The notes beneath the pieces are model-generated. The model was not told the origin of the DNA. It worked only from the letters and a program-made list of their open reading frames with translations, and ran no database searches. A stretch of DNA of 64,000 nt. Source: a virus. Every line of letters begins with the position of its first letter. Within the stretch, counting starts at the first letter, position 1. Shown here piece after piece: positions 23,717 to 43,123 of this stretch. The position numbers and the translations under genes are program-made. Where the stretch lies: the IMG/VR virus record IMGVR_UViG_3300023175_001502, positions 1 to 64,000 of that record; one strand, given 5' to 3'.

Positions 23717-24425
23717 AAACTACGATCCTGATAATCATGGCTTAACGCACGACTTCTTATATAATAGTAACGATTGGGATATAATTGAACTAAATTATAA
23801 CGTAGATGTCGAAAGTCTAAAAGCATGGTGGACTGACGTTAAAGAAAATTTTGATTACATGTTGTTTAACTTTAACAAGATGTCCGAAAAACTTAATTTA
23901 GAAAAAAGTAAAGAAATGGTAGAGCAAGGGTATTGCGGTTACTATTGCGGACCAATTGATGGTGTAACTTTAGCATGGCCTATAGAACGTTACGAAGCAC
24001 TGCCTCCTCCAGCACAGTGTAATGCTGAAATGTATCCTGAAGTAGATTATGATAACTTTATTAACGATGCAAAAATTATGCCTAAATTACAATTTGGCTA
24101 TTTCAAACAGTTAGTAGAAGAATTAGGATCAGATGCATTTAGACAAGCGATTGTTACTAGACATCATCCAGGTATGTATATACGTCAACATATAGATAGT
24201 AAAGTACTTAAATTACATATTCCAATAGAAAGCAACAAAAACAGTTTTTTCCATTTCGGAGAAAATAAAGAACGTTCGTATCATATGAAAGAAGGTAAAG
24301 CATATATTCTTAACACTGGAGATTGGCATGGAACTACTAACGAAAGTGACGACTATAGATCTCATATAATTACAAGGGTAACAGAAGACCATATTTTAAA
24401 TGTAATAGGAATGACTAATGGATAA
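23676..24425 (+). CDS. Fe(II)/2OG oxygenase-like protein (local family)
   Basis: 249 residues. H172-x-D174 ('RQHIDSK'), H218 ('GDWHGTT') and R228 form a complete jelly-roll iron/2OG site. The C-terminal pattern 'LHIPI..N...F.F......Y.M.EG.AY..N....H' is shared with the genes at 24418, 25158, 26208 (twice) and 30427. It overlaps the following paralogue by 8 bases. Substrate unknown; prolyl/asparaginyl hydroxylase-like chemistry is the likeliest. Confidence 0.7.
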   Translation: MENAQHTQDSRIIKNYDPDNHGLTHDFLYNSNDWDIIELNYNVDVESLKAWWTDVKENFDYMLFNFNKMSEKLNLEKSKEMVEQGYCGYYCGPIDGVTLAWPIERYEALPPPAQCNAEMYPEVDYDNFINDAKIMPKLQFGYFKQLVEELGSDAFRQAIVTRHHPGMYIRQHIDSKVLKLHIPIESNKNSFFHFGENKERSYHMKEGKAYILNTGDWHGTTNESDDYRSHIITRVTEDHILNVIGMTNG

Positions 24426-25161
24426 AGTTCTAAAACCTTCTCAAGTTGACCTGTCAGTTTTAGAAAGTTTAGAATGGGACATTATTATATTAGATAAAAA
24501 AATAGCTATAAAAAATTTACAATATTGGTATAATATTGTTACATCTAACTTAGATTATTTAAAATTTAATTTTCAAACATGTTCTGAGTACATAAAAGAA
24601 TCTGTCAATAATAAATTTACTACCGATACAAATGATTACGAATGGGAACGTAACAAAACATATGAAGCATTAATTAACTCGTGGACATTAACTTGGCCAA
24701 CTCACAGAGATGTACCCCTTCCGCCTCCTTGGGCTGCTGACGTAGAATTTTTTACAGAATTAAAAAGTTACTTTGATAATGACGGTAATGTTGTAAAAGA
24801 TTTTGATTATAATGATAATACATATCTTACCCAATATAATTTTGGAGAATGGAAATCTATAGTAGAAGAAATAGGCAACTATATTTACAATCCACGAATA
24901 ACGCAACACATGCCTGAGCATATACTTCATCCGCATACAGACGGATACTGTGCTAGATTACATATTCCTATGACATATGACAATAGTAAATTTTATTGGG
25001 GAGAAAAATGGAATAGAGAATATAACTTTGAACCAGGAAATGTTTATATTATAAATTCAAGAGTTACACATTCTACTACAAACTTTAGTCCAACAGCAAG
25101 GGCAAATATTATTTCAGATATACGCAATGATAAATTTATGGATTTAGTTAATTGGAAATGA
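24418..25161 (+). CDS. Fe(II)/2OG oxygenase-like protein (local family)
   Basis: 247 residues. H173-x-D175 ('HPHTDGY'), H218 ('RVTHSTT') and R228, at nearly the same positions as in the preceding paralogue. The N-terminal half has diverged strongly, which suggests different substrates after duplication. Overlaps the next gene as ATGA. Confidence 0.7.
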   Translation: MDKVLKPSQVDLSVLESLEWDIIILDKKIAIKNLQYWYNIVTSNLDYLKFNFQTCSEYIKESVNNKFTTDTNDYEWERNKTYEALINSWTLTWPTHRDVPLPPPWAADVEFFTELKSYFDNDGNVVKDFDYNDNTYLTQYNFGEWKSIVEEIGNYIYNPRITQHMPEHILHPHTDGYCARLHIPMTYDNSKFYWGEKWNREYNFEPGNVYIINSRVTHSTTNFSPTARANIISDIRNDKFMDLVNWK

Positions 25162-25805
25162 AGAGATATATAGAAGAGCATCAAACAGTTGATCTAGGAT
25201 TTGACGTTAAACGTATATTTTGTGTTGATGTCAAAAAGTTACAGGATTGGTATAATGATCTACAAGAAAATTATAAAGATTGGAAATTTGTTGTAGGAGA
25301 AAATCATCATGTGTGGCAGTTTCCAATTAGTGACCCTACTGGGGAGACTGGACATATTATACCAGACGAAACTGGTTATTATACGTTATGCTGGAATAGT
25401 GACGAAGAAGGTCCTAAACCTTTTGAGCAAGGTTGTGCAAAACCGGAGTATAGGGATAATGATAATGATGAATTAAATCCTAGAAAATGTTTTACAGGAT
25501 ACGGATTAGAGCTTGTTAAAAGTCTACCCTTTCGTAGTAAAAAATGGTTAGTAACTGAGCATGTAACTGGAACTAAATTAATTACACATCAAGACAGTCC
25601 AGATAAAATTAGGGTACATATTCCTATACACACTAACAAAGATAGTAATTGGATTATAAACGGTAAAGAATATCACATGGAACCAGGTTGGGCATATCTT
25701 GTAAACACAACACTTCCTCATAGTGTTGAAAACAAAGGTACAACAGACAGAGTACATCTTTATGGTAAAGTGTGGATCGAGGACGTAAAAGCATGGTTAA
25801 TGTAA
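25158..25805 (+). CDS. Fe(II)/2OG oxygenase-like protein (local family)
   Basis: 215 residues. H144-x-D146 ('ITHQDSP'), H188 ('LPHSVEN') and R198 ('TDRVHLY'). I chose the ATG at 25158, which forms an ATGA junction with the previous stop; an in-frame TTG at 25152 is less likely. Shorter N-terminus than its neighbours. The following phosphatase-like gene overlaps its end by 13 bases. Confidence 0.7.
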   Translation: MKRYIEEHQTVDLGFDVKRIFCVDVKKLQDWYNDLQENYKDWKFVVGENHHVWQFPISDPTGETGHIIPDETGYYTLCWNSDEEGPKPFEQGCAKPEYRDNDNDELNPRKCFTGYGLELVKSLPFRSKKWLVTEHVTGTKLITHQDSPDKIRVHIPIHTNKDSNWIINGKEYHMEPGWAYLVNTTLPHSVENKGTTDRVHLYGKVWIEDVKAWLM

Positions 25806-26218
25806 AAACATATGCAATGAAAGATATGCACCCTATACCTAACAACGAATATCTTATTGGTATACACAGTAATGGTAATTGGATACATTCTGAGCCTGTT
25901 ATGGCAGATGCAGATAATGTTTTAAATTTAAAATTTGAAGATGTTGAAAAAACAGGATTAAAAGCAATACAATGGTACAATAACACACAACGAATAATAC
26001 ATGCCACAGCATGTAGCGATAAACAAGCAGAACAAATTATAAGTTTTATACGCAAAATACCAGAGGGTGCTACATTACATGTATATTGTGCAAAAGGACA
26101 ATCGAGAAGTGTTGCTGTTGCCAACTATGTTAAAAAGTATTATAATAACGAAACAATAGATGACAGAGGTCATAACAAACATGTTTATAGTCTATTAGAA
26201 AGGTATCATGATGTTTGA
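25793..26218 (+). CDS. dual-specificity/tyrosine phosphatase-like protein
   Basis: 141 residues. 'LHVYCAKGQSRSVAVANYV' contains a full CX5R phosphate-binding loop (C99, R105) followed by the usual helix. An Asp acting as general acid cannot be assigned. The start at 25793 follows AGGA at a suitable distance; a GTG at 25772 in frame is less likely. It lies inside the oxygenase array, overlapping both flanking genes, so it is probably part of the same pathway. A sugar or RNA phosphatase role is as possible as a protein phosphatase. Confidence 0.65.
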   Translation: MVNVKTYAMKDMHPIPNNEYLIGIHSNGNWIHSEPVMADADNVLNLKFEDVEKTGLKAIQWYNNTQRIIHATACSDKQAEQIISFIRKIPEGATLHVYCAKGQSRSVAVANYVKKYYNNETIDDRGHNKHVYSLLERYHDV

Positions 26219-27383
26219 TTTTGATATTAAAGAATTACCTAACTTTAAATTTTCGTTGCAAGAACTAAAAGACTATTATGCTAAAGTATCTCAGTATGAC
26301 AACTTAAAGTGGCAACCAGATAGTACAAATACATTAGATCACAAAGTAAACAATGTATACAGTTGGGCTATACAAAGTAATTTAAAAGACACTACAAAGC
26401 CTTGTCCGCCATATGACATTAAACATGACAGTGAAGTATTAGGTACGTTTGATAATCCTACTGAGCTTGTATTTGGGTTTGGCAAGTATATTGTAGATGC
26501 AATACCTGATATTAGACAAACAGTTATAAGTGCCCACCCACCTGATACAGTTATACAACAACATATAGATAATACTGAGTTTGTAAAAGTGCATATACCT
26601 ATACAAACGAATAATCAAAGTTATTTTGTATTTGGTGATTCAAAGTATAATTTGCAAGAAGGTAAAGCATATCTTATTAATACTACTAATCAACATGGTA
26701 CAATTAATCAAGGCGACACAGACAGAGTACATTTAATATTTAAAATACCTGTAGACAATGTAGATGAATTACTTAATACAGAGTGGATATTAGATCCAGC
26801 TCAAATAAATTTTGATTGCAAAAAAATAGAAAATGTAAAATTTAATTTTGATGAACTTAAAGAATACTATAATGACCTTGTAGATAATTTTGATTACCTA
26901 AAATGGACAATGCCCGAAGTTCCAGGAACTAATCTAAAAGGATTATACGGATACGCTATATTAACTAATTGCGAAAATGTAGACGAACGTCCATTGCCTC
27001 CAGGTATGCGTAAAGACAAGAAAGCATTTGATCCTATTATAAAGCCTACTAAGATGCTCAAAGGTTTTGCTAAAAAACTATACGATCAGATTCCTTATAT
27101 AGAAGAATTAGTTATTACTGGGCATCCTGAAAATTCTGGAATACCGCCTCACGCAGATAAAGACGAGCATGTAAGAGTACATATTCCGTTGTATGCTAAT
27201 AACGATTCGCATTTTATTATTGATCAACACCCGTATGTATTAGAACCTAATAATGTTTACATTGTAAATACAAAACGTATACACACTACGATTAACAAAG
27301 GTTCTACAGATAGAATCCATTTACATTTTAAAATACCCATAGGAAAAATAAATATTTTTTTAAGGACACAAATAAACGTATGA
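26208..27383 (+). CDS. tandem two-domain Fe(II)/2OG oxygenase-like protein
   Basis: 391 residues made of two copies of the local oxygenase domain. Domain 1: H119-x-D121, H163, R173. Domain 2: H315-x-D317, H359, R369. Both keep all iron and 2-oxoglutarate residues that I can identify, and both contain 'STDRIHL'/'DTDRVHL'-like C-terminal strands. The duplication is in frame and joined by a short linker around 185-205. The fusion suggests two sequential hydroxylations or a built-in pseudo-dimer. Overlaps the halogenase-like gene by 4 bases. Confidence 0.72.
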   Translation: MMFDFDIKELPNFKFSLQELKDYYAKVSQYDNLKWQPDSTNTLDHKVNNVYSWAIQSNLKDTTKPCPPYDIKHDSEVLGTFDNPTELVFGFGKYIVDAIPDIRQTVISAHPPDTVIQQHIDNTEFVKVHIPIQTNNQSYFVFGDSKYNLQEGKAYLINTTNQHGTINQGDTDRVHLIFKIPVDNVDELLNTEWILDPAQINFDCKKIENVKFNFDELKEYYNDLVDNFDYLKWTMPEVPGTNLKGLYGYAILTNCENVDERPLPPGMRKDKKAFDPIIKPTKMLKGFAKKLYDQIPYIEELVITGHPENSGIPPHADKDEHVRVHIPLYANNDSHFIIDQHPYVLEPNNVYIVNTKRIHTTINKGSTDRIHLHFKIPIGKINIFLRTQINV

Positions 27384-28486
27384 ATATAATTATTGTAGGC
27401 GGCGGAACAGCAGGTTGGATGACAGCCTCATATCTTTCTAAAAAGACCGACTGGGATATTACAGTTATCCAAAGTCAAGATATACCTATAATAGGTGTAG
27501 GTGAAAGTACACTGCCTAGCATGTATGACTTTATACATGATTGCGGATTAACTGAGCAAGACTTATTTGATAATTGTGATGCGGTTCGTAAGTATACAAT
27601 TAAACATAAAAATTGGCACGGCGAAAGTTGGTTTCATCATTTTTGTTTTGATGAAACAGAACACGACGAGCAAATGCATTGGATGGAAAACTACGAGTTA
27701 CCAGATAAAAAATGGCGTCATGCATATCATATAGATGCAAATAAATTTGGTATTATGTTGCGTGATAAAGTAGCATTGCCAAATGGTGTTAAATTAGAAA
27801 CACGTACATTAGATACTATTGATGATTTACAAGCTGACTTAATTATTAATTGTACAGGATTTAATAAATTATTTCCTAAAAGAGAAATGGTTAGTACACG
27901 CCTTAAAAATAATTGTGCTGTAGTAGCACCTAGTTATGATAAAGAGCTAAAGTACTATACAGAAACAACTGCCATGAGTAATGGTTGGATGTGGAACATT
28001 TATTTACAAAACCGCATTGGTAATGGTTACGTGTTTAGCACTGAACATCAAACAGTTGAAGATGCTAAACGCGAGTTTATCGAAAAGTGTCCGTATACTC
28101 TTGAATTAGACAAAATGCGAGTATTACATTGGGAAAGTAAATATTGTCCAACACCATATCAAGATAATATACTAAACATAGGGTTAAGTGCTGGATTTAT
28201 TGAACCTTTAGAAGCACAAGCAATTTGGTTAATACAGTATCAAATTGAAATGCTAGTTAAATTATATGGTAAACAAAAAGTTTACAATAGACAATATGTT
28301 AAGGTTGTAAAACATATTGAAGATTTTCTTGCACTACATTATGAAGCAACAAGTAAGAATACGCCCTATTGGCAAAATCAAGTAAAAGAAATTGAGATTA
28401 AAAAGAAACCTTTTACTATCTTTGATGAATATAGTTTTAGGTGTTTAGCGAACGGCTACGCTCTTCCATATACTTTGAAACATTAA
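27380..28486 (+). CDS. flavin-dependent tryptophan halogenase-like protein
   Basis: 368 residues. N-terminal FAD loop 'GGGTAGWMTA', then 'VGESTLPSM', a Lys in 'RKYTIKHKNW' aligning with the catalytic Lys of PrnA-type halogenases, 'GWMWNI' (the W.W.I flavin-halogenase signature), and 'GFIEPLEAQAI', where the usual ES pair reads EA. It is shorter than the 500-540 residues of typical tryptophan halogenases. Activity may be halogenation or another flavin oxidation. Its last 50 bases overlap, tail to tail, the GNAT-like gene on the opposite strand. Confidence 0.75.
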   Translation: MNIIIVGGGTAGWMTASYLSKKTDWDITVIQSQDIPIIGVGESTLPSMYDFIHDCGLTEQDLFDNCDAVRKYTIKHKNWHGESWFHHFCFDETEHDEQMHWMENYELPDKKWRHAYHIDANKFGIMLRDKVALPNGVKLETRTLDTIDDLQADLIINCTGFNKLFPKREMVSTRLKNNCAVVAPSYDKELKYYTETTAMSNGWMWNIYLQNRIGNGYVFSTEHQTVEDAKREFIEKCPYTLELDKMRVLHWESKYCPTPYQDNILNIGLSAGFIEPLEAQAIWLIQYQIEMLVKLYGKQKVYNRQYVKVVKHIEDFLALHYEATSKNTPYWQNQVKEIEIKKKPFTIFDEYSFRCLANGYALPYTLKH

Positions 28487-28982
28487 TACGCCACAAGTTC
28501 TGCGGAACATTGTACAACTCCATCTTACGATCTAAAGTCCAAATTCCTGTTTTAGCAAGCATTGGCATAATAGTATTATTCATACGTTGGCTTTTGCCAC
28601 CGTCGTTGTTGATGTTAGTACTAATATAAAGTTGTGCGTTAGGATTTTTAGTTGCCCAATCAATCTGTATAGGCAATAGATAACTTAAATGTATTCCAGT
28701 TTTAAATATATTTCTACCAGTGCCTAACGTGTAGCCTGGTAATTGTGCGCCTCTAAATAATAGTCTATAGGCATTAGGTGATACTTCAGGAAGTTCGTGT
28801 GCGCCAGCAATACTTACAATACGTTCTTGGTCAAATGCTGCACACCAAAACGGGCACCAGTCCCATTTCATTTTTTCTAAAGAAGTGTTGTTGCTATAAG
28901 ACTGAGAATTACAAAATATCTCAACAGCATCTCTGTCATTTTTAGATAATGTTCTAAACGTCAGTCTTCCAAGTTTTTCCAT
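28437..28982 (-). CDS. possible GNAT-type acyltransferase
   Basis: 181 residues. N-terminal 'LGRLTFRTLSKNDRDAVEIF' resembles the first GNAT strand-helix, a central beta part ('IVSIAGAHEL') follows, and 'RLLFRGAQLPGYTLGTGRNI' could form the pyrophosphate-binding loop, though it lacks the canonical Q/RxxGxG/A. 'YISTNINNDGGKSQRMNN' looks like the strand-helix that ends GNAT folds. The gene overlaps the adenylation-domain gene by 29 bases on the same strand. Moderate confidence in the fold, low in the substrate. Confidence 0.45.
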   Translation of the reverse strand: MEKLGRLTFRTLSKNDRDAVEIFCNSQSYSNNTSLEKMKWDWCPFWCAAFDQERIVSIAGAHELPEVSPNAYRLLFRGAQLPGYTLGTGRNIFKTGIHLSYLLPIQIDWATKNPNAQLYISTNINNDGGKSQRMNNTIMPMLAKTGIWTLDRKMELYNVPQNLWRINVSKYMEERSRSLNT

Positions 28983-29622
28983 TTGCTTCTTTTCTTCTAT
29001 GCGAGAATGTCATTGTTTGTGTGTCAAAGATATCACCTGTAGACCTACCGTTTATTATTGCTTCACCTAAATTAGATGTAGCAGATACAGGGTGAAACAT
29101 TATATGATCATCAGTTGGTCGATTGTACAAGTCAAAACTAGGACTGTCATACCCTATAAGAATAGGTGGCGGAAACTCTGTCATACCATACCAGTTTGCT
29201 ACACACTGTACACCTCTATTTTTAAATGCATTTATAAAGTCTTGATCTATTTTATTACTACCTGTTACCATGTAACGTACACAACTCATATCTAAGTCTT
29301 TAAAGCCTTTTGTACTTTGTAAAAGCTCTAAATGACGCGGTATAAGCGCAATATAAGACGGTTGTAAGCGTTTAAATGCTTGTATGTATGTATATGGCGT
29401 AAAGTTGCTACAAACGTACTGTGCGCCGCTTAAAACGCTAGGATACGCTGTTATAGTCCAATGTGCAATAGTATTAGCAGGAAACACATCTAGTACAACA
29501 TCCTTGCTGGTTAGTTGTATTTCTTTAGCACTACGTCTAGCACATTCATTAATGTATTTCCAAGAATGTGTTATTTGTTTAGGTTCGTCTGTACTACCTG
29601 ATGTATAAAGTGTTATGCTCAT
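28954..29622 (-). CDS. minimal AMP-forming adenylation (ANL) core protein
   Basis: 222 residues. Starts directly at the ATP loop 'LYTSGSTDEPKQITHS' (core A3), then 'NWYGMTEF' (A5, near 144-151) and 'STGDIFD' (A7). The usual N-terminal 150-200 residues and the C-terminal lid domain are absent, so it is under half of a normal acyl-CoA ligase or NRPS A domain. The neighbours are an SGNH-like protein and a GNAT-like protein. It might load a carboxylic acid onto a carrier or transfer it directly. Confidence 0.7.
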   Translation of the reverse strand: MSITLYTSGSTDEPKQITHSWKYINECARRSAKEIQLTSKDVVLDVFPANTIAHWTITAYPSVLSGAQYVCSNFTPYTYIQAFKRLQPSYIALIPRHLELLQSTKGFKDLDMSCVRYMVTGSNKIDQDFINAFKNRGVQCVANWYGMTEFPPPILIGYDSPSFDLYNRPTDDHIMFHPVSATSNLGEAIINGRSTGDIFDTQTMTFSHRRKEANGKTWKTDV

Positions 29623-30434
29623 AGTAGTCTATCCTTTAATACATCTGCTGTATGTCTATGTACACCTATACCTGGATGGCCTGATATAGTACCGTTTTGT
29701 TTACAAATGTCTCTAGCAAATTTTTCATTATTATCTTCGATACCTAGTAGATCAATATTAATACGTATAATAGGCAAAGTAGTAGGAAAGTAACTAAACA
29801 TAGTTAATGGTATGTTGTTAGTCTTACAAAATACTTCTAACATGTTTACATATATTTCTGCTTCGTTTTGTAAGAAGTCAGTACGTTCTAGTAATTCATA
29901 AGGTTCTACATAATTGCATTTAGGCCTATGACTGCCAGTAAACGTAAAAGCAAAATGATCTGTAAAAAATGTATATCCGTGTGCAGGCGGAAATTCAAAA
30001 CATGCACTTTTTGGAGCACCGTGTAAGTTTACATAATTAAAAAATGATATAACTTGTAGTTTAGTGCTATATGTAGGACCAGCATAACTTAGCATAGGTG
30101 TGTCTAGTTCTTTAGACAATATATCAGTGTATCTATCTTTCTCGTCCACACCAATACCTAAAGTATAACTTGTGCCACTAAAATAAATTAAGTCTTTGGT
30201 TAAATCTACTTCATTAGACATACGTAATCCTAAACTGTTGAAGTTGTAATTAATCTCTTTGTTATTGTATATCCAACTACTATCTTGATATTTTTTGTTA
30301 CGCTCGTGTAGTCTTTCGTTATCAGGTCCGTAGTAATTAGAACTTGTATTAGGAATCATGCTGTCGTGTTGATATGGCCAGTCAGTCTTTTTGTAAAGAA
30401 TAGAAGTATTTAATCTTGTTTTAATGTTAGCCAT
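29619..30434 (-). CDS. SGNH-hydrolase-like protein
   Basis: 271 residues. 'LIYFSGTSYTLGIGV' fits block I of GDSL/SGNH hydrolases with GTS in place of GDS, keeping the nucleophilic Ser; 'LSYAGPTYSTKLQ' fits the Gly block; 'GHPGIGVHRHTADVL' fits block V with a catalytic His, although the expected Asp is not obvious. In phage islands such proteins may remove or transfer acyl groups on sugars. The gene overlaps the oxygenase gene upstream by 8 bases and the adenylation gene by 4. Confidence 0.55.
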   Translation of the reverse strand: MANIKTRLNTSILYKKTDWPYQHDSMIPNTSSNYYGPDNERLHERNKKYQDSSWIYNNKEINYNFNSLGLRMSNEVDLTKDLIYFSGTSYTLGIGVDEKDRYTDILSKELDTPMLSYAGPTYSTKLQVISFFNYVNLHGAPKSACFEFPPAHGYTFFTDHFAFTFTGSHRPKCNYVEPYELLERTDFLQNEAEIYVNMLEVFCKTNNIPLTMFSYFPTTLPIIRINIDLLGIEDNNEKFARDICKQNGTISGHPGIGVHRHTADVLKDRLL

Positions 30435-31197
30435 TGTATGTAATATGAGTCTCGCTTTTTAACAATCTATCTACAGCGTCATTTGATGGGTCAGAGTGTA
30501 ACAATATCCATTCTTCATCTCCGTGATTTACAGGAGCATGTACATTGCTCACATTAACTAGGTAAACTTCACCAGGCTTAGGATTATAACTTGCACGTTC
30601 GTATTGCCAAGTATCAGCAGGTGTTTCTCCTAACTGTGAAAAGAAATGCCATGATGAATTTTCGTTAGTTTGCAAGTTAACGTGTAATCGAATCATATGT
30701 TCTGACATGTCTTCACCGTCGTGATCTCTATGTGGCCCAATGCCACATTCCTTAGCACAGTTCATAGCTCTACCCCATGTCCACGCATCTTCTCCTAATT
30801 GATCTATCATACTCTTGTACGCACCAAAATAATATTGTTCAAGATGGTTGTCCATTTTATTTTCCCATGTTTCGTCTAACATTTCTGGAAATTTTTCTTT
30901 ATTACAAAAGAATGGAGTAGGTATAGCATCACGTCTTTGTATAGGCCACTGTAATGCCCAAAATCCTGCATCACCTACACATATGCCGTTCATTCTAGGA
31001 TGATCGAGTAAATGCGATTCAAATAAGTCTTTTTGAGAAAATAAAAATAAACTTTCGGGAGAAGTAGTTTTTACAGTTTCAAACCATTCTAGCAAAGGCT
31101 TAGGATCTACAGTAACATTTAACTTTACCATATCCCAGTCTAAGTTTCTTAAGTCTTCTCTAGTATAGTTTTGGGGATCTGTAATTAATTTAGTCAT
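30427..31197 (-). CDS. Fe(II)/2OG oxygenase-like protein (local family)
   Basis: 256 residues. H156-x-D158 ('GPHRDHDG') and H220 ('SNVHAPVNHG') complete the iron triad; the Arg is less certain. N-terminal 'RNLDWDMVKLNVTVD' matches the start of the proteins at 23676 and 24418, so it belongs to the same family although on the other strand. Its ribosome-binding site lies in the 3' arm of the hairpin at 31200-31242, so its expression may depend on how that hairpin folds. First gene of the - strand part of the island. Confidence 0.7.
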   Translation of the reverse strand: MTKLITDPQNYTREDLRNLDWDMVKLNVTVDPKPLLEWFETVKTTSPESLFLFSQKDLFESHLLDHPRMNGICVGDAGFWALQWPIQRRDAIPTPFFCNKEKFPEMLDETWENKMDNHLEQYYFGAYKSMIDQLGEDAWTWGRAMNCAKECGIGPHRDHDGEDMSEHMIRLHVNLQTNENSSWHFFSQLGETPADTWQYERASYNPKPGEVYLVNVSNVHAPVNHGDEEWILLHSDPSNDAVDRLLKSETHITYNG

Positions 31198-31199
31198 AA

Positions 31200-31242
31200 A
31201 AAAACTCCTTCTGTAGTATTTAACCTACATTTAGGAGTTTTT
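31200..31242 (-). terminator. hairpin/terminator overlapping a Shine-Dalgarno sequence
   Basis: Read on the - strand, AAAAACTCCT (31242-31233) pairs with AGGAGTTTTT (31209-31200), and an inner TGTAG/CTACA pair (31229-31225 with 31216-31212) extends the stem. Seven T follow before the ATG of the oxygenase gene at 31197. The 3' arm includes AAGGAG (31210-31205), the ribosome-binding site of that gene. It can act as an intrinsic terminator for the tail gene, a translational mask, or both. A GTTAAATA late-like box lies in the loop. Confidence 0.65.
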
Positions 31243-31254
31243 AAAGTAATGTGA

Positions 31255-32340
31255 TTAGTTTAAGTCTACCCAAGCACTACCTGTGTAGCCTTGGAATTTA
31301 GTGTTTGTAGTGTTAAAGATTATCATTCCTGCTGCTGGTGCTGTAACAGCTGCATCTCTTGCTGCATCGTCTGCATATACACCTGGTTGTAATACTGGAG
31401 ATTGGAATACACCAACATTATCAAATGTTGCTTTTGCAGCATCTGCTACGTTCGGACCATTAAGAACAGCAAATACTAATTTACCAAGTGCTAATGTACT
31501 TACACCATCACTTTCTTGTGTTAATTCTGCTCTAATGACACACGGAGCAAGTGATACAGAACTCCCACCCGGAATTGTTATTAAGCCACCAAAGTCAAGT
31601 CTTCCTAAGCTATCACCAACTTGTAATGCTGTTTGGTTTTCGTATGTTCCGTTATGATTGTAAAAACCTAAATTTGCACCAGTTCCTTCACTTGCACCAG
31701 TCTGACTAGTAACTTCTAAGCCAGGAACGTTTGCATTAGATATTATCTTTATACCTATATCAGATATTAAATCATCAGCTCTTGTGTCAAATATAGCATT
31801 TTGTGTAGTTTCAATAGTACCTTTGAATTTACCATCAGTACCATCAATAACTAATGTAGAATCATCAGCGTATACACTACCTGAAACATCGCCTGCAATG
31901 TTAATGTTGTAAGTTGCACCTGCTACTAAACCACTTTGTGCATCGTCGTCATTAGGAACAAATGCACTTCCGTTCCATTTAAGAACTTGTCCTACACCTG
32001 GAGGATTAGATGCTAAGTCTACGTCTTGCAAATCATTTAATGATTTATTATCTAGAACAGTAGGATCACCTGGCTGGAATTCTTCGTCAACAGCATTCCA
32101 TACTAGGCTCTGGCCACCTGTTGGAGGTGTAGATGTAATATCAACATCGCTTAATGCATCAATACTTAAATCGGAGTTAGCAACGTCAACAGCAATACCA
32201 CCTGCTGTAGAACCATCGCCTACATAAAGTTTTTTAGTATCTGTTGTATATATTAATTCGCCTTCAGCTGGCACTGGTAAGGAAACACCGTCTAGTGTTT
32301 GTCTTTGTGCATCTGTGCCTCTTCTTAATCGCAATGCCAT
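31255..32340 (-). CDS. tail-fibre/receptor-binding-like structural protein
   Basis: 361 residues. The N-terminus 'MALRLRRGTDAQRQTL' followed by 'PAEGELIYTTDTKKLYVGDG' is the motif I associate with virion attachment domains related to the MTD N-terminus. Two repeats then appear: 'SDVDITSTPPTGGQSLVWN' and 'QDVDLASNPPGVGQVLKWN'. The C-terminal half is Gly/Ala/Thr-rich and ends 'WVDLN'. It has a GATAAATA late-type box upstream and a hairpin downstream, so it is likely a monocistronic late virion gene. Possible target of the neighbouring modification island. Confidence 0.7.
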   Translation of the reverse strand: MALRLRRGTDAQRQTLDGVSLPVPAEGELIYTTDTKKLYVGDGSTAGGIAVDVANSDLSIDALSDVDITSTPPTGGQSLVWNAVDEEFQPGDPTVLDNKSLNDLQDVDLASNPPGVGQVLKWNGSAFVPNDDDAQSGLVAGATYNINIAGDVSGSVYADDSTLVIDGTDGKFKGTIETTQNAIFDTRADDLISDIGIKIISNANVPGLEVTSQTGASEGTGANLGFYNHNGTYENQTALQVGDSLGRLDFGGLITIPGGSSVSLAPCVIRAELTQESDGVSTLALGKLVFAVLNGPNVADAAKATFDNVGVFQSPVLQPGVYADDAARDAAVTAPAAGMIIFNTTNTKFQGYTGSAWVDLN

Positions 32341-32377
32341 TTTTTTATAACTCCTTAATGATTTAAGTCTACATATA

Positions 32378-32385
32378 TATTTATC
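32378..32385 (-). promoter_or_regulatory. T4-late-like promoter box GATAAATA
   Basis: GATAAATA on the - strand, 38 bases before the tail-fibre-like gene, which has AAGGAG in its leader. The T4 late consensus is TATAAATA. Confidence 0.55.
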
Positions 32386-32394
32386 ATAAAAGTG

Positions 32395-32712
32395 TTATTT
32401 CTTTTTCTTCATAAAGATTTTTGTACGCTTGGTAATGTCCTTTTTTACCCGTTCCATATCTACTACAAAGTTAACACTCTGCAAAACATCCTCGTATTCC
32501 GCCATTAAATCTTCCATACTTTGTTCAAATGCTTCAGCATTTGATTGGATGCTACGGTTAGGATCATTTTCAATAATCCACACTTTTCCGTCGGTAAAGG
32601 TTACTTCAACAGCCTTAATGTACTCAGTAGGTACGACTTTGATGTCGATATTACCGAGTACTTCAGGCCATTTGTCTATTACTTCTTTGCTTAGTTTATT
32701 CTTTCTAGGCAC
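32395..32712 (-). CDS. conserved T4-like phage protein, function unknown
   Basis: 105 residues, basic at both ends ('MPRKNKLSK' and 'IFMKKKK') with an acidic centre. 'VEVTFTDGKVWIIEND' is beta-type and is followed by a long helix. No enzymatic motif. It overlaps the upstream gene by 8 bases. I recall similar small proteins next to VWA and AAA genes in T4-like marine phages; not verified. Confidence 0.6.
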   Translation of the reverse strand: MPRKNKLSKEVIDKWPEVLGNIDIKVVPTEYIKAVEVTFTDGKVWIIENDPNRSIQSNAEAFEQSMEDLMAEYEDVLQSVNFVVDMERVKKDITKRTKIFMKKKK

Positions 32713-33295
32713 TTTGGGCGGACTTCTTGCTACGCTTGGTAGGAACCAATTCTTCCGCTTGTTCTCTTAAACGCTTTGCTTCTTTAAACATAGCATCTGC
32801 TTGAGAACGATATTGAGCCGCTAAATCTTCATCGCTAAGAACACCAGTGTCTTGTCCTAAGTCTGTAACTTCGGGTTGTACAGCAGGTTGTTCTGCAGGC
32901 TTATTTGTAGATTTTGCTGGTTGCAGAGCAAGATCAGCAACAGTTACGCCTTTTTGTTCGGCAATAATTTTATTAAGCTCGCTAAGAACAACGGTGCTTT
33001 GCATATCTGGTGTCATTTCGATCTGGCTTGTAGGCATCTTAGTAAGTTTGCCTGTACCACTAAATGCTACCAACATGTTTCTTCCATCTGGTAAAACAGC
33101 TCTGTTCATTGCTTCTGCAAGTTCATATGCTGTCTGACCTGCGTTTGATTCTATTAAGTTCATTAATGAATCGTGTGCATCAGACTCTAAACTATCAGTA
33201 AAAACAACTAAACAGTTATCTGGATCATTAGGAATTACACGGTATGCTACAGCACAACGTCTCTTAGGATTAATTTGTCTTCCAATATGTTTCAT
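32705..33295 (-). CDS. conserved phage protein with C-terminal coiled coil
   Basis: 196 residues. N-terminal globular part ('CAVAYRVIPNDPDNCLVVFT', 'SGTGKLTKMP'), a Pro/Gln/Thr-rich linker, then a charged C-terminal helix ('AMFKEAKRLREQAEELV'). I use the ATG at 33295, preceded by AAGGAG; the longer frame to 33361 would run back into the preceding gene. No catalytic motif. Confidence 0.65.
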   Translation of the reverse strand: MKHIGRQINPKRRCAVAYRVIPNDPDNCLVVFTDSLESDAHDSLMNLIESNAGQTAYELAEAMNRAVLPDGRNMLVAFSGTGKLTKMPTSQIEMTPDMQSTVVLSELNKIIAEQKGVTVADLALQPAKSTNKPAEQPAVQPEVTDLGQDTGVLSDEDLAAQYRSQADAMFKEAKRLREQAEELVPTKRSKKSAQSA

Positions 33296-33296
33296 A

Positions 33297-33545
33297 TTAT
33301 TCTCCTTTAGGAGCCTCTTTTTGTGCTTCTTGTTGAGCTTCTTGTTGAGCTGCAACAGCACCTAAAAATGCTTCTAATTTGCTATAAACAGTACCTACAG
33401 TAGTCATTTCGTTAGGCTTAAATGCGCCTCTACTACTTGCTACATCAATGATAGTTCTCATTGCTGTTAGATCTTGCACAGTAAGATCTGGTGCAGGTGC
33501 TTGCTCAGGAGCAGGTTGTGCTTCAGTTTTATTTTCATCGCTCAT
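33297..33545 (-). CDS. small conserved phage protein, Gln/Ala/Glu-rich
   Basis: 82 residues. Low-complexity Glu/Ala/Pro N-terminus and Gln/Glu/Ala-rich C-terminus around a central helical core ('AMRTIIDVASSRGAFKPNEM'). A GGAG precedes the ATG. I recall small proteins with this core in T4-like cyanophages. Function unknown. Confidence 0.65.
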   Translation of the reverse strand: MSDENKTEAQPAPEQAPAPDLTVQDLTAMRTIIDVASSRGAFKPNEMTTVGTVYSKLEAFLGAVAAQQEAQQEAQKEAPKGE

Positions 33546-33583
33546 ATTTTAATCTCCTATAATAATATATATGCGTACTTTAT

Positions 33584-33853
33584 TTATTTGTACTTCAAAT
33601 GTGGACACGCCAACATGAAATAACTTGCTTCTTTTGGATCCTCAAAACCTACTTTTAAAGAATTAGACTTATGTGTATAAGAGTTATCTTTTGCAATAAA
33701 GTATCTCTTTTTAAGATTCTCAGAAATCCATCTAGTAATACTAGGCTCCATATTGTATGTCTGATCAACGGTAATAACTTCAAAATGCTTTGGGCAAAAA
33801 TGAGTTTTTCTTACATTGAAAAAATTTAATGGATTAGGCTGCTTGAGCTTCAT
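33584..33853 (-). CDS. small conserved phage protein
   Basis: 89 residues, basic, with paired cysteines and histidines ('THFCPKHFEV', 'ACPHLKY') that could bind a metal. Its start overlaps the end of the VWA/metallopeptidase gene by 20 bases, so it is probably co-expressed. An AATAAATA sequence (33581-33588) overlaps its stop and may serve as a late-type promoter for the following gene. Function unknown. Confidence 0.55.
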   Translation of the reverse strand: MKLKQPNPLNFFNVRKTHFCPKHFEVITVDQTYNMEPSITRWISENLKKRYFIAKDNSYTHKSNSLKVGFEDPKEASYFMLACPHLKYK

Positions 33854-35126
33854 AGTGTGCTGTTACTCCAAACGGTGCTTGCAAGTTTTTGTCATGGTTG
33901 CTGTGAATAATAAAGACTGTTTCACAGTAATCTTCATCGCCCCAACTACCCCAAGGATAGCCGTCTGTGAACATAATAAACTTTTTAGGTTGAATATCGT
34001 TTTCTCGCATGTAAGTCCAGTTAGCATCGAAGTCAGTGCCGCCGCCGCCTAAGATTTCGTAATCTAGTAATTCAGTACCGTTATCTGATGTAAAGTCTTG
34101 CTCGTTATATACAGCGGTATCAAAGCACCATAATTTAATTGCATAGTCTTTGTATTCGTCCATAATGCCTTTAACTTCACTTAAAAAGTCTTGTGCTTGA
34201 TGATCACCAATACTTCCGCTCATATCAATACCGATTGCAATATCAATAGTATTTTCAAAGTTCATACCCGGAAGTACAGCACCAGTGTGCCAGCCTTTAC
34301 GTGAAGGACGCATAAATGTGTAATCACTTTTAATTGTACTTTGAATTTGCTGACGTAGTAATTCACGCCAGTTAATTTTAGGTTCAGTTAAATCTTTAAT
34401 TAAACGATCTACACCTTTTGGAATATTGCCTGCGCCTGCACTCTGTGCGGCAGTGATCATATTCTCTTTAATTTCGTCACGTATCTTTTTAAGTTCTTCT
34501 TTTGAATATGAAGGACGACCATTACCTTTACCGTCTTTACCGCTGTCGCCGTCCTGACCTTCACCTGCACCTTCTGTCCAATCTAAATGCTCATCGAGCA
34601 ATTCACCTAAAGCTTCTAGCTCTTGGTTGTCATACTTTTCAAAAAGGTCATCATAAACTTCTTCAGAAGTCCAACTCTCATATTTGAAGTCTTGAAAACA
34701 GTCAACTAATTTAGGTTTTGTGCCAATGTTGTCACGTACCAAAATATTGTTCACAATATAATCCTGTGCAATATTACTAATCATAGGATCTAGGTTACGA
34801 TCCTGCCATGTACGGCGTTCTAAGTGATCAAATACACAGTGTAAAATTTCGTGTGCAATAACAAACTCAATTTCTTTATTATCCATTGCATTAAAGAACT
34901 GAGTGTTAAAATAAAGATTACGTCCATCTACGGCCGCTGTAGGAATCCAATCATCTGCGGCTTGGATTTTTAAACGTGTTGCCATGTTGCCAAAGAAAGG
35001 ATGCTTAAGAAGCAAACCTACACGAGCTACAATAATGCGATCAAGTACTTCTTCACGCATAACAGCAAGTTCTTGTTCAGTTAAGTCTGGATTAGGTTGC
35101 CAGTGTTTTTTACCTTCTACGCTCAT
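33834..35126 (-). CDS. VWA-domain/metallopeptidase-like protein, partner of the MoxR ATPase
   Basis: 430 residues. N-terminal zincin-like motif 'HEILH' (92-96) with a third His at 101, a charged linker, and a C-terminal VWA domain with the MIDAS motif 'IDMSGSIGDH' (DxSxS). The pairing of an HExxH-containing DUF2201-like region with VWA is known in bacterial proteins next to MoxR AAA+ ATPases. Such pairs act as chaperones that remodel or activate proteins or insert metals. The gene has its own sigma70-like promoter and follows a terminator. Confidence 0.75.
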   Translation of the reverse strand: MSVEGKKHWQPNPDLTEQELAVMREEVLDRIIVARVGLLLKHPFFGNMATRLKIQAADDWIPTAAVDGRNLYFNTQFFNAMDNKEIEFVIAHEILHCVFDHLERRTWQDRNLDPMISNIAQDYIVNNILVRDNIGTKPKLVDCFQDFKYESWTSEEVYDDLFEKYDNQELEALGELLDEHLDWTEGAGEGQDGDSGKDGKGNGRPSYSKEELKKIRDEIKENMITAAQSAGAGNIPKGVDRLIKDLTEPKINWRELLRQQIQSTIKSDYTFMRPSRKGWHTGAVLPGMNFENTIDIAIGIDMSGSIGDHQAQDFLSEVKGIMDEYKDYAIKLWCFDTAVYNEQDFTSDNGTELLDYEILGGGGTDFDANWTYMRENDIQPKKFIMFTDGYPWGSWGDEDYCETVFIIHSNHDKNLQAPFGVTAHYEAQAA

Positions 35127-35157
35127 GTGTGCTATGTCCTTTCTAATTTATATGTAT

Positions 35158-35186
35158 ATTATACTAATATTTAACTGTTTTGTCAA
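35158..35186 (-). promoter_or_regulatory. sigma70-like promoter for the VWA gene
   Basis: On the - strand, TTGACA (35186-35181), 17 bases, TATAAT (35163-35158). Start site expected near 35151, leader about 25 bases, with AAGGA before the ATG at 35126. Confidence 0.75.
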
Positions 35187-35197
35187 CCAGAAAAGGT

Positions 35198-35226
35198 GAT
35201 AGGGTGAACACGAAGTCCACCCTATC
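35198..35226 (-). terminator. intrinsic-type terminator downstream of the MoxR gene
   Basis: Perfect 9-base stem GATAGGGTG/CACCCTATC (35226-35218 and 35206-35198 read on the - strand) with an 11-base loop, followed by a short T run (CCTTTTC). It lies 5 bases after the MoxR stop and directly before the promoter of the VWA gene. Confidence 0.6.
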
Positions 35227-35230
35227 TAGT

Positions 35231-36316
35231 TTAAGAACTCTGTGCTGCTTTAATGTATTTTCCATAACGATCATGGAACTCATCAAAACACTCTACAGCG
35301 TCCGGGTCGATTGGAAGTCCGTACTGTGTAAGTGCGAGCTTAATACCCATAACTACTAGTTCAGTATCGAAGTTATCCATCGAAAAGCGCAGGAAGTTGT
35401 TGACTTTCTTATCGAAGTCTTTGTCACGTTTCTTATCAGCTTCTTGAAGCTCATAACACAATGACACAGTGAGGGAATACATAGCACTGATTTCTTTACT
35501 GGTCATCTCCGTGACCTTACCTGCTAGAATATCAGTTGGATTAGGCATTTGTGAAGCAACCTTACGGTGTGCCATAAATTTGACAGCCAGGCCTTCGCCA
35601 ACTGAGCCACTTACCAAATCGGTTGTAGTGGTTTCATCTAGGTCGTCTTCTAGTAGTTCAGATACAAACGACCAAGAACGGGGTGTTGCAAAAGAACGAC
35701 TTGGGCTTTTAGGATCAAAGTCATACAAGTCTTTCTTTGCAAAAGTTAAGTAACCTACAACGTCTTTATGGATATTGTTTGATACAGCCCATGAGAACCA
35801 ATCATCAAACGAAACAGCCATCTCTAAGTGAACAAAACGATTAGCAAGCGGAGCAGGCATACGGTACGTTACACCTTTGTCTGCTTCACGGTTACCTGCC
35901 GCAATAATCACAACGTTGTCAGGTAGTACATAAGTACCAACCTTACGGTTAAGAATAAGTTGATAAGCTGCAGCCTGTACAGCAGGTGCAGCAGAATTCA
36001 TTTCATCTAAGAATAGAATGATAAGTTTATGTTTCGCAGCCAGTTCTTCGTTTGGAAGTTCTGCAGGCGCCGCCCAAACCATTGCATTGTCGTTTGCAGA
36101 GTAATAAGGAATACCTTTAATGTCTGTAGGTTCCCAAAGTGACAAACGAACGTCAATGACATGTGCCTCTAGTGTTTCACCAATTTGGTGAACAATATCA
36201 GACTTACCAATACCTGGAGGACCCCAAATAAAGATAGGACGTTGTTTCTTGATAGCATGTGTGATGCTTGTTTTTGCGCTGTTAGGCGAAACTGTTCTTG
36301 TGATAGCGTTTTCCAT
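35231..36316 (-). CDS. MoxR-type AAA+ ATPase
   Basis: 361 residues. Walker A 'WGPPGIGKSD' (31-40), Walker B 'LIILFLDEMNSA', sensor 1 'AAGNREADKG', and an arginine-finger region 'PAPLANRFVHLEM'. The pattern fits MoxR/RavA-type chaperone ATPases, which work with VWA proteins, one of which is encoded next. The two genes have separate promoters and a terminator between them, so their ratio can be set independently. Target in the infected cell unknown. Confidence 0.82.
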   Translation of the reverse strand: MENAITRTVSPNSAKTSITHAIKKQRPIFIWGPPGIGKSDIVHQIGETLEAHVIDVRLSLWEPTDIKGIPYYSANDNAMVWAAPAELPNEELAAKHKLIILFLDEMNSAAPAVQAAAYQLILNRKVGTYVLPDNVVIIAAGNREADKGVTYRMPAPLANRFVHLEMAVSFDDWFSWAVSNNIHKDVVGYLTFAKKDLYDFDPKSPSRSFATPRSWSFVSELLEDDLDETTTTDLVSGSVGEGLAVKFMAHRKVASQMPNPTDILAGKVTEMTSKEISAMYSLTVSLCYELQEADKKRDKDFDKKVNNFLRFSMDNFDTELVVMGIKLALTQYGLPIDPDAVECFDEFHDRYGKYIKAAQSS

Positions 36317-36366
36317 GTATTACCTCTCTTAGTAAGTTATCAGTGCTAATTTCTAACTATACATAT

Positions 36367-36394
36367 AGTATAGCATCTACAAGATAAAAGTCAA
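36367..36394 (-). promoter_or_regulatory. sigma70-like promoter for the MoxR gene
   Basis: On the - strand, TTGACT (36394-36389), 16 bases, TATACT (36372-36367). The leader of about 40 bases ends in AGAGAGGT before the ATG at 36316. Confidence 0.6.
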
Positions 36395-36401
36395 CCTTTT
36401 T

Positions 36402-36794
36402 TTAATCTTTTTCTGAATTATTTTGTCTTGATAACGCTTTAGTAATCCCGTATTTCCTAATATCACCTGAAAATAGGCTAAGTTCTACGGCTTTTTTTTG
36501 GTTTGTTACAAGGATAGATTTAGGTCCAATATAATAGGGACAGTCAATAAATTTGTCTAAGAATATCAATATTTGAGTAGTCATTGGCATATCGTGAGGA
36601 TATGTAATATCGTAAGTTGCAATATCTATTTTGCTTAACATATCTAATCCTGCTTCTGTAAGTCGCAATCCACCTTCGTCTTTATTCCTAGTGTTTTGCC
36701 ACCATAGAGGCATATATTCCTTCATAGCCGTTTGATTGTAACTATGACCTAACTCTTTAAGGAATATTTTAGTATAGGTTTCTTTCCAGTTCAT
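36402..36794 (-). CDS. conserved phage protein, function unknown
   Basis: 130 residues, mostly helical, with Trp-rich N-terminus ('YMPLWWQNTRN') and no enzymatic motif. Overlaps the upstream small gene by 4 bases. I have no functional assignment. Confidence 0.6.
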   Translation of the reverse strand: MNWKETYTKIFLKELGHSYNQTAMKEYMPLWWQNTRNKDEGGLRLTEAGLDMLSKIDIATYDITYPHDMPMTTQILIFLDKFIDCPYYIGPKSILVTNQKKAVELSLFSGDIRKYGITKALSRQNNSEKD

Positions 36795-37078
36795 TCTGTA
36801 ACAATTTCACCTGTCTCTAATTTATATACTTTGAAATCGTCACATGCAAAAAGTTCATTTAATTTTTGTGCTAGATTGTGTGCATGTCCTGGATTAGAAA
36901 AACTTGTTTTCTTGTATTTAGGCCCAGGATAATTTGTTAAGGCGTTTGAACTTTTAAGATTGAAAGGTTTTTCTTTATAGAAGACAGCCCAGATAGCATC
37001 AGCATCTAGTACTTGTTCACATCTATAATTTTTTTTGTTAATATGTTCTAATAGAACACTTGGCTTTGGTCTACTCAT
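36791..37078 (-). CDS. small conserved phage protein
   Basis: 95 residues with 'IWAVFYKEKPFNLK' and 'NPGHAHNLAQKLNELF'. A likely alpha/beta single domain without catalytic residues that I can name. A GATAAATA box lies about 29 bases upstream of its start. Confidence 0.6.
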   Translation of the reverse strand: MSRPKPSVLLEHINKKNYRCEQVLDADAIWAVFYKEKPFNLKSSNALTNYPGPKYKKTSFSNPGHAHNLAQKLNELFACDDFKVYKLETGEIVTE

Positions 37079-37106
37079 ATACGTAATCCTTAGTTAACTA
37101 CGTATA

Positions 37107-37114
37107 TATTTATC
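37107..37114 (-). promoter_or_regulatory. T4-late-like promoter box GATAAATA
   Basis: GATAAATA on the - strand in the gap 37079-37137. The flank (GATAAATATATACGTAG) is nearly the same as at 32378 (GATAAATATATATGTAG), which supports a real motif. Confidence 0.55.
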
Positions 37115-37137
37115 TCTTTTTTGTATTAAGTGCGTGG

Positions 37138-37395
37138 TTATTTCCAGTCAGATCCACCGTCTAATTGAACCTCTACAGGCTCATTTTCTATATTAGACAT
37201 GTGTTCTTTAATAAACGCTTCCATATCACCGTTGAGTCGAGCCATTACTTCGCCTAGAGTAAATGCTAATCTTTTTGCTTCGTTTATATCCAAACGAATT
37301 TCTTTTGCTCTACTATTGTCGGCACTTTTTACAGTTTGTATAAACTGTTGCACTGGAAAAGTGTTTATTGGATCAAGATTCTTTTTTGTTTGCAT
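37138..37395 (-). CDS. small conserved phage protein
   Basis: 85 residues with a helical core ('EIRLDINEAKRLAFTLGEVM') and an acidic C-terminus. Overlaps the upstream gene by 23 bases. I recall similar small proteins in T4-like cyanophages beside RNase H; no function known to me. Confidence 0.6.
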   Translation of the reverse strand: MQTKKNLDPINTFPVQQFIQTVKSADNSRAKEIRLDINEAKRLAFTLGEVMARLNGDMEAFIKEHMSNIENEPVEVQLDGGSDWK

Positions 37396-37843
37396 TAGAT
37401 AATTCCTGACGCATTGTCATTTCGTTTTTAAAAGGACCATGATATTCATATCGTTCTAGTGTAATTAGTTTTGGACAAAAACTTTTAACCCAACCCTTTT
37501 CAAAACGAATAATATAATATCCTGCACAATACAAGCTCTTGCTTTTTAAACTTTTAGTAAAAAGTGCAAACTTACGATGTACATCATAAATTACATTGTA
37601 AGGAGTTGTGCTAGTAGGATATCCATATATTTCTTTTGTAACTTCTATTTTTGCGGTTGGCTCCCTATCAAATATAGTGCTACCTAGCTTTTTTTCAACA
37701 GCTTTCTTTGTATTAAAAAAAGATACACCGCCTGAAGAACTAAGCATAAACCTTTCATCGTTGTAACTTAGTGTACCAATTTTTTCGCCGGATTCTTCTA
37801 CAATCCAAAATTTATTTTTTAAAATAGTTTTTGCTTTTATCAT
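37373..37843 (-). CDS. conserved phage protein, function unknown
   Basis: 156 residues, beta-rich and basic ('FWIVEESGEKIGTLSYND' at the start). Overlaps the RNase H gene by 4 bases (ATGA) and is therefore translationally coupled to it. No signal peptide or membrane segment; no motif recognised. Confidence 0.6.
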   Translation of the reverse strand: MIKAKTILKNKFWIVEESGEKIGTLSYNDERFMLSSSGGVSFFNTKKAVEKKLGSTIFDREPTAKIEVTKEIYGYPTSTTPYNVIYDVHRKFALFTKSLKSKSLYCAGYYIIRFEKGWVKSFCPKLITLERYEYHGPFKNEMTMRQELSNANKKES

Positions 37844-38832
37844 TGAGGATACCTCGCTTGTAATGGTTCTGCGAAATAACTAACTTGATCAGCTATTCGT
37901 TGCATATCCCATTTAGCACAGAACTTCATAAGACGTACACCTACTTGTGATATGTTCTTAGGATTTTCTGTTGCATTGTTAATTACATCATTAATCATTA
38001 CTCTTATATCGTTAGGTTGTGCTGTCAAGTCACATAATGTAACATTACGATTATAGTCATCTAGCACACGATGTTCAACACCTTCATGATCTACCCAACG
38101 TTGTAACATCATGTTATTCCAGTTGTAACCTTTTGTAGCCTTATCTTCAAATGCTTCAATAAGTCCGACTTTATTCTTAGTGCCTTTTTTGCGTACACCT
38201 GGATAAGCACTAAACACATTATCACTTGTATCTCCACGCATACACTTTTCAAATAACATAAATGCAGGATCAGGTGCAGGCTTCGGCTCGCCTGTTTTCT
38301 TGTCTATAACAGGCTGTCGCTTCTTGTCATCAAAGTACCCTTCGTGTGTAATAATAGTGTTGCTTACACCATTGTATTGCTTTACGTTAGGTGCAATTAG
38401 TTGTGCAAAGTCGCCATCTGTACTAACAATAATATGATTATCGTTAGGGTGATTCTGTACCCAACCTGCAATAAGATCATCTGCTTCTAGTTGCGGATGT
38501 TGCATAACAGTACAGTTTGTCTTTTCACTAACAAAGTTTTTAAACTCGTCAAAGATTTCCCAAAACACTTTATCTTCTTCTGCTTGTACAGGAGACATAG
38601 CATCGCGAGTTTCTTGACGGTTACGCTTGTAAGGCTCGTAAAAGTCCTTACGCCAGCTGCGACCTTCTAAGCAGAATACAACATGATCTGCATCAAAGTC
38701 TTGCCACGCTTTCTTAACACTATTAAAAGTAATGTGTAAAGCCATACCGACTTTAGTATCTACATCGCCACGTACTACATGACGAGCTCTAAAGAAAGTA
38801 TTTGCTGTATCAACTAGTATATAAGTTGCCAT
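37840..38832 (-). CDS. rnh: T4-type RNase H / 5'-3' exonuclease
   Basis: 330 residues. FEN-like metal ligands appear in order: 'ILVDTANTFFRAR' (D8), 'VVFCLEGRSWRKDFYEPYK', 'LEADDLIAGW' and 'IIVSTDGDFAQL'. A later 'MRGDTSDNVFSAYPGV' matches the second metal-binding/H3TH part. The T4 enzyme (305 residues) removes RNA primers and trims flaps. The start overlaps the glycosylase-like gene by 23 bases. It belongs to the replication set with gp43 and gp45 further right. Confidence 0.85.
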   Translation of the reverse strand: MATYILVDTANTFFRARHVVRGDVDTKVGMALHITFNSVKKAWQDFDADHVVFCLEGRSWRKDFYEPYKRNRQETRDAMSPVQAEEDKVFWEIFDEFKNFVSEKTNCTVMQHPQLEADDLIAGWVQNHPNDNHIIVSTDGDFAQLIAPNVKQYNGVSNTIITHEGYFDDKKRQPVIDKKTGEPKPAPDPAFMLFEKCMRGDTSDNVFSAYPGVRKKGTKNKVGLIEAFEDKATKGYNWNNMMLQRWVDHEGVEHRVLDDYNRNVTLCDLTAQPNDIRVMINDVINNATENPKNISQVGVRLMKFCAKWDMQRIADQVSYFAEPLQARYPQ

Positions 38833-39937: not shown

Positions 39938-40056
39938 TATAGTCCTGCCTCCCTAGCACGAGTTTCTAAGTCGTTTACTTTTTCCACTTTACGCTCACGC
40001 TGTTCTTGTTTAATAAAATCATCTGGATCAAAAGCATTCTCAAGTCCCCCACGCAT
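39937..40056 (-). CDS. small acidic/basic helical protein, 39 residues
   Basis: Begins 'MRGGLENAFDPDDFIKQEQR' and continues as a charged helix ending 'ETRAREAGL'. A longer frame reaching to 40458 exists, but it runs through queE and its translation there looks like a shadow; I therefore use the ATG at 40056. It overlaps the end of queE by 17 bases and shares one base with the next gene. Function unknown. Confidence 0.5.
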   Translation of the reverse strand: MRGGLENAFDPDDFIKQEQRERKVEKVNDLETRAREAGL

Positions 40057-40924: not shown

Positions 40925-40930
40925 ATCTAC

Positions 40931-43122: not shown

Positions 43123-43123
43123 A

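Follow-up and report, generated by a model that had tools for sequence, protein, structure and literature searches.

The late promoters of bacteriophage T4 consist of a single 8-bp TATA box that begins at -13, roughly one turn of the helix ahead of the transcription start, and a late-promoter variant at -13/-12 is reported for phage Aeh1 (both in the available text of PMC2988020); the late motif of S-PM2 is given as NATAAATA in the available part of PMC2984593. In the established switch of T4 gene e, the Shine-Dalgarno sequence (SD) is masked in the long early RNA, and late promoters just upstream yield an open RNA; lysozyme synthesis from the long RNA is reduced about 100-fold, and the genes e, soc, 49 and I-TevI are described as sharing this mechanism of SD hiding and late promotion (PMC3014915, available text). 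The leaders of I-TevI, I-TevII, I-TevIII, segB and Aeh1 mobE are built alike, as a hairpin hides the ribosome-binding site (RBS) and late transcripts lack enough of that hairpin (available text of PMC2988022).

The window considered here, meaning the whole stretch of DNA that was analysed, is 64 kb of a virus record of 118,904 bases. On its minus strand a hairpin lies between a tail gene and a probable oxygenase gene; this hairpin is genuine and conserved, and it is considered to be a late-expression lock of the T4 gene e type with a probability of about 0.75. As described for gene e in the text available, read-through RNA would hide the SD, and a late promoter within the hairpin region would give RNA without the 5' arm; the same fold test applied to the gene e leader yields -14.9 kcal/mol, with the TAAATA core of the late promoter in the loop. 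Gene e has the consensus TATAAATA (two promoters), no T run and a lysis enzyme as its product, whereas the element of the window has GTTAAATA, a two-part stem of 5+10 bp, seven T, a probable auxiliary oxygenase downstream and a tail gene upstream. The homing endonuclease leaders differ from it in their genes and hosts, and no terminator-like tract is described for them in the available text of PMC2988022. Within the accessible portions of the T4-review literature, the mechanism was not found described for the leader of an auxiliary oxygenase gene or for contigs of uncultured T4-like phages.

The hairpin and its flanking genes

Fifty-seven bases of the minus strand (31254-31198) separate the tail gene from the ATG of a gene for a 256-aa protein, and they contain a two-part hairpin with a 10 bp outer stem, a 5 bp inner stem and GTTAAATA as the loop (Table 1). 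The original prediction had described the 10-base stem, the inner stem and the seven T running up to the ATG, and on the minus strand both sequence and fold agree with that description. It had also placed AAGGAG in the 3' arm with the T run as spacer; the SD core AGGAG is entirely base-paired and the T run is the spacer, but the first A of AAGGAG is unpaired and five of the seven T themselves pair with the A tract. The 50-nt element folds at -17.5 kcal/mol (z -5.0), and none of 200 dinucleotide shuffles, with a mean of -6.3, is as stable; the contrast is smaller in longer folding contexts, where shuffles are as good in 6/200 (107 nt), 3/200 (128 nt) and 11/200 (151 nt) cases. The pattern CTCC-N3..18-TAAATA-N4..16-GGAG has one match in the 118,904-base record, and its backward reading has none. 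An Rfam search of the window gave no match at the gathering score, and a tRNA search of the window found none.

Table 1. Features of the junction and of the region upstream, with the basis of each assignment
Feature	Position	Strand	Basis
Composite early/late promoter-like site TTGACA-17-TATAAT with GTTAAATA in the spacer	35158..35186	-	12/12 box match
GATAAATA, probable late promoter of the tail gene	32378..32385	-	Sequence and motif census
Upstream tail gene, 361 aa, Mtd_N domain	31255..32340	-	phrog_677 E 2.1e-14; PF18454 E 3.3e-11
5' outer arm, anti-SD (AAAAACTCCT)	31233..31242	-	Pairs with 31209-31200
5' inner arm TGTAG	31225..31229	-	Co-varies with partner arm in relatives
Loop GTTAAATA, predicted late promoter (-13 to -6)	31217..31224	-	Invariant TAAATA core and promoter census
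3' inner arm CTACA	31212..31216	-	Fold
Predicted late transcription start, G	31211	-	First base of the octamer set at -13, T4 geometry (PMC2988020, available text)
Shine-Dalgarno AAGGAG	31205..31210	-	Sequence, computed accessibility
3' outer arm with AGGAG	31200..31209	-	Unchanged in aligned relatives
Seven T: SD-to-ATG spacer, possible terminator U tract	31198..31204	-	Invariant in relatives
Locked gene, 256-aa protein, probable 2-oxoglutarate-type hydroxylase	30427..31197 (ATG 31197-31195)	-	Homology to window paralog

The PHROG family matched by the tail protein is the baseplate wedge / tail fibre connector family. The 256-aa protein has no direct Pfam or PHROG match, and its structure prediction (mean pLDDT 34.6) gives no usable model; because a homologue encoded in the window (29% identity, E 5e-24) matches PF05118, aspartyl/asparaginyl beta-hydroxylase, the name oxygenase chosen in the original prediction is reasonable. 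Three PF05118-matching proteins are encoded on the plus strand of the window, and the plus-strand run (end 28486) converges with the minus-strand unit of the hairpin (end 28437). The oxygenase island also contains a tryptophan-halogenase-like gene (PF04820, E 3.6e-72) at 27380-28486 on the plus strand, and an AMP-binding enzyme domain is found at 28957-29622 on the minus strand. The record encodes a T4-type DNA polymerase (phrog_262) that, among named phages, best matches Sinorhizobium phage Phosso (50.5% identity) and Agrobacterium phage Atu_ph07 (46.3%); in a phage collection, 24 kb of this DNA had no match by megablast and the oxygenase had none by tblastn.

Conservation of the pairing and of the loop core

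The hairpin is present in all 11 contigs found to hold a whole relative of the downstream gene; it persists in L004, L005 and L011 even though these diverge in the spacer and at the end of the tail gene. A twelfth contig, L232, has a more distant tail gene and keeps the hairpin with its inner stem rewritten. L232 is IMGVR_UViG_3300009496_002242, in which the body of the oxygenase is mostly deleted and the hairpin and the first and last codons remain. A wider search with the oxygenase alignment added one further record, L359, which is the same contig as L232. In eight related records searched the element occurs once each, with one looser pattern match elsewhere in G003 and one in G008.

The inner stem was compared in an ungapped alignment of five rows, four of them distinct. 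Four of its five pairs are changed on both sides and still pair, with 95% of cells paired, and the covariation score was matched by 1 of 500 shuffles over these four distinct rows; as a control, the partner was shifted by one, two or three columns, which gave 0 to 0.33 vs 0.90 in register. Three of the double changes are unique to L232 and the fourth is common to L004 and L232, and covariation without L232, in the first alignment, is not significant (136/500 shuffles). The pairing thus appears to have been kept by compensatory change among relatives, mostly through L232 and over four distinct rows. The loop core TAAATA is invariant across the four distinct aligned variants, the stem around it changing yet pairing; in the 5' outer arm, two A to G changes in L004 give G-U pairs.

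The predicted late promoter and the terminator question

The loop octamer GTTAAATA differs from the T4 consensus TATAAATA at two positions, and in the window both it and GATAAATA tend to precede minus-strand genes. All four copies of GATAAATA and three of the five copies of GTTAAATA in the window lie 12-48 nt, counted from the first base of the core to the start codon, before a gene on the same strand; the other two copies of GTTAAATA are inside or against genes. A stricter rule of 10-50 nt places 6/9 of these octamers upstream of a same-strand gene, and one GATAAATA, near 59735, lies too near the adjoining start to serve it. Of the 56 cases of TAAATA in the window, 10 lie upstream of genes against 3.2% expected (p 1.1e-5), and AT-rich control hexamers are likewise raised before genes (ATAAAT 11/90, TTAAAA 14/159, AATATA 10/108). 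The heptamer ATAAATA is depleted in the window (10 vs 38.7 expected), and every one of the five copies on the minus strand stands just before a gene; this depletion is not specific, because TTAAATA is depleted too (23 vs 46.1 expected).

The tail and downstream proteins of the window recur with 100% identity in contig G001, which also encodes a late sigma factor resembling gp55 (phrog_234, E 8.8e-23); no gp55 match was found in G000, the record of the window itself, which is possibly a fragment. A factor of the gp55 type is likewise encoded by Phosso (E 6e-21), where the open frame as read is interrupted by a stop. The original prediction had proposed a late-type promoter in the loop, and the invariant TAAATA core, the motif census and the sigma factor of G001 are consistent with such a promoter. 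The octamer GTTAAATA is sited so that a late transcript from this predicted promoter would lack the 5' arm.

A second composite early/late promoter-like site, which matches TTGACA-17-TATAAT in 12/12 positions and has the late-type core CCTAAATA in its spacer, is found at 41663-41691 on the minus strand. In relatives NNTAAATA recurs, flanked by TTGACA and TATAAT-like boxes, at what seems to be the place matching the composite site of Table 1. The combination TTGAC-TAAATA has 23 distinct matches, not all with a TATAAT box, compared with between 4 and 12 when six scrambled hexamers were tried, and the sigma-70-like promoter scan overall is at chance (84 vs 83.1).

In the proposed switch, RNA entering from the tail gene or from farther upstream would fold the hairpin, so that the SD of the oxygenase gene would be paired and hardly translated. 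Late RNA polymerase would start at about 31211 from the loop promoter GTTAAATA, immediately before AAGGAG; the resulting late RNA, with a 14-nt leader and without the 5' arm, would have its SD free. Opening the stretch from SD to AUG is computed to cost 13.2 or 12.7 kcal/mol in read-through RNA vs 2.0 kcal/mol in RNA from 31211. Oxygenase synthesis would then depend solely on the gene's own late promoter and not on how much the tail gene is transcribed, and the T run might also end part of the incoming transcripts. Early transcripts running through the tail gene and the junction could originate at the composite site of Table 1; such read-through is plausible because the 12/12 TTGACA-17-TATAAT match of that site lies upstream on the same strand (35186-35158). 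That folding would hide the RBS had been foreseen, and sequence and comparison support it; the alternative of another switch in place of a loop promoter is not needed.

The tail stop codon is 12 nt ahead of the 5' arm, which raises translational coupling as another explanation: ribosomes finishing the tail gene would melt the hairpin, and the oxygenase would be translated only alongside the tail gene. A ribosome terminating at that stop codon would extend roughly to the foot of the stem and hardly into the part of the arm that pairs with the SD, and the promoter-like loop is left unexplained, which makes coupling very improbable.

Termination is a separate matter, as the hairpin had been introduced as a terminator. 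A d'Aubenton-Carafa-type score is about +2.9 in the best framing and negative in three others; a standard terminator scan of 24000-43999 does not list the hairpin, probably since the internal loop breaks the rule of the tool, and that scan as a whole is at chance (12 vs 9.9). Among the matches listed of a sample not selected for T runs, TTTT follows AGGAG directly in 0/25 strong forward-only hairpins and stands anywhere before the start in 5/25. The wording of the original prediction is therefore weakened by the marginal score and by the 0/25 count: termination at the T run is only possible. The further step, by which the hairpin is a plain intrinsic terminator of the tail gene, with the SD in its 3' arm by chance and an incidental loop sequence, is unlikely. 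An A tract, a stem and seven T do lie in the 3' region of the tail gene and are kept across variants, and strong A-tract/T-run hairpins directly follow the tail gene in L023 and L053; however, the score is marginal, a plain terminator has no need for an invariant TAAATA loop core or for an SD-bearing arm, the core stays despite a rewritten stem, and all 25 strong hairpins before other genes, among the matches listed, are without TTTT after AGGAG.

Related elements in environmental contigs and cultured phages

Viral contigs were scanned with the pattern CTCCT-TAAATA-AGGAGTTTT, which gave 115 stretches, 75 of them distinct; an open frame with a start is found forward only in 49, backward only in 7, on both sides in 1 and on neither in 18. 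Over the same 75 contexts a 40-codon rule gives 48 forward and 8 backward, and allowing open contig ends gives 50 and 8. Divergent gene pairs, recognised as a confounder via T4, are separated by these forward and backward counts. With the same arms and the scrambled loop ATTAAA, a control of one hexamer only, 24 stretches were found, 20 of them distinct (4 forward, 4 backward, 1 both, 11 neither). At 12 or more pairs the TAAATA set has 27 forward vs 2 backward and the scrambled control 3 vs 0; the control is thus also forward-biased, and strong hairpins differ in number, not in direction. Six of the 75 distinct elements, L232 included, are the own family of the oxygenase hairpin locus.

Ten downstream proteins were picked for a family search, of which two had no match and eight did: baseplate hub/tail lysozyme, two head-tail adaptor (neck) families, terminase, tail protein, cytidyltransferase, nucleotide kinase, and an eighth labelled NAD synthetase that also matches homing endonucleases. 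The broad generalisation, in which one hairpin would terminate one gene and supply the next with both a translational lock and a late promoter, recurring between same-direction genes of environmental T4-like phages (baseplate hub, neck, terminase and auxiliary enzymes) with overlapping 3' and 5' transcript ends, is tentative and rather doubtful.

For the oxygenase junction itself, a reading that extends the lock would have the hairpin end a real share of transcripts and the loop restart them, the ends overlapping by about 14 nt; this is given somewhat less than an even chance. Every letter needed is present and kept in relatives, Phosso shares the layout (15-bp stem, GTAAATA loop, T run, ATG), and a same-strand open frame ends at most 120 nt upstream in 35 of the 46 T-run cases that could be tested, 3 further cases being too near a contig end. 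Against these points stand the marginal terminator score and the origin of the T runs, since TTTT is imposed by the pattern of the 115-stretch scan; among the matches listed of at least 120 stretches not selected for a T run, only L118 and L177 recur in the TTTT scan.

A general rule was examined at loci L013-L092, which were picked by their tail gene and not by a hairpin. The SD is paired upstream at 21/61 NATAAATA sites vs 16.1 from shuffles, at 12/19 NTTAAATA sites vs 8.9 (four of those listed being the own family of the oxygenase locus) and at 5/14 NSTAAATA sites vs 5.7, and in the window at 3/8 vs 1.7; the null is lenient in that shuffling retains the dinucleotides of the arm. An SD-hiding hairpin as the general rule at late promoters is therefore unsupported, the unselected loci having only a weak excess. 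Hairpins of this SD-hiding TAAATA kind recur and are no general rule. Other hairpins at tail genes were seen in the same contigs: in L032 (2793) and L043 (4001) an RBS-hiding hairpin of -25.3 and -27.8 kcal/mol, respectively, with CATAAATA inside, precedes the tail gene itself, and the A-tract/T-run hairpins after 5224 in L023 and after 5458 in L053 have no TAAATA loop.

A looser arm pattern was applied to nine records; it matched once in the record of the window, in 2 places in T4 and in 3 in Phosso, and had no match in 6 of the 8 cultured phages, the pattern being insensitive because it misses T4 gene e. The T4 places (NC_000866 77344-77379 and 116435-116473) hold the opposed SDs of divergent genes, a shared TATAAATA region and CTCCT...AGGAG arms, which poses the question of whether two RBSs could pair in a long RNA. 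Both T4 matches lie between divergent genes (4/53 and 26/51) whose opposed SDs are the arms, and this favours regarding such a repeat as a DNA-level inverted repeat (a protein operator) or as the chance pairing of two facing ribosome sites. At the junction of the window either origin is extremely improbable, as the tail gene and the oxygenase gene have the same direction and the G-U pairs of L004 fit RNA and not a DNA palindrome.

The match at 129907-129935 of Phosso (PV764938.1) resembles the element of the window in having an SD-hiding hairpin of 15 bp (-24.9 kcal/mol), the loop GTAAATA, a T run and a same-strand upstream gene, and it precedes the start codon of the CDS at 129946 as the oxygenase hairpin precedes its ATG; the fold of the Phosso match at 453204 is no more stable than expected by chance. 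The Phosso element differs in that a hypothetical protein lies downstream, and the feature table lists no element there. Phosso is thus a cultured phage that carries such an element and can be used for testing.

The anti-SD arm, the TAAATA loop and the SD arm form a simple signature by which late starts could be sought in phages without transcript data. If the late-expression lock is correct, an uncultured T4-like phage would keep a probable auxiliary oxygenase under strict late control, with the dose of this enzyme separate from that of the structural genes, and a form of control for which T4 lysozyme and homing endonucleases are the main known examples would also guard structural genes in uncultured relatives.
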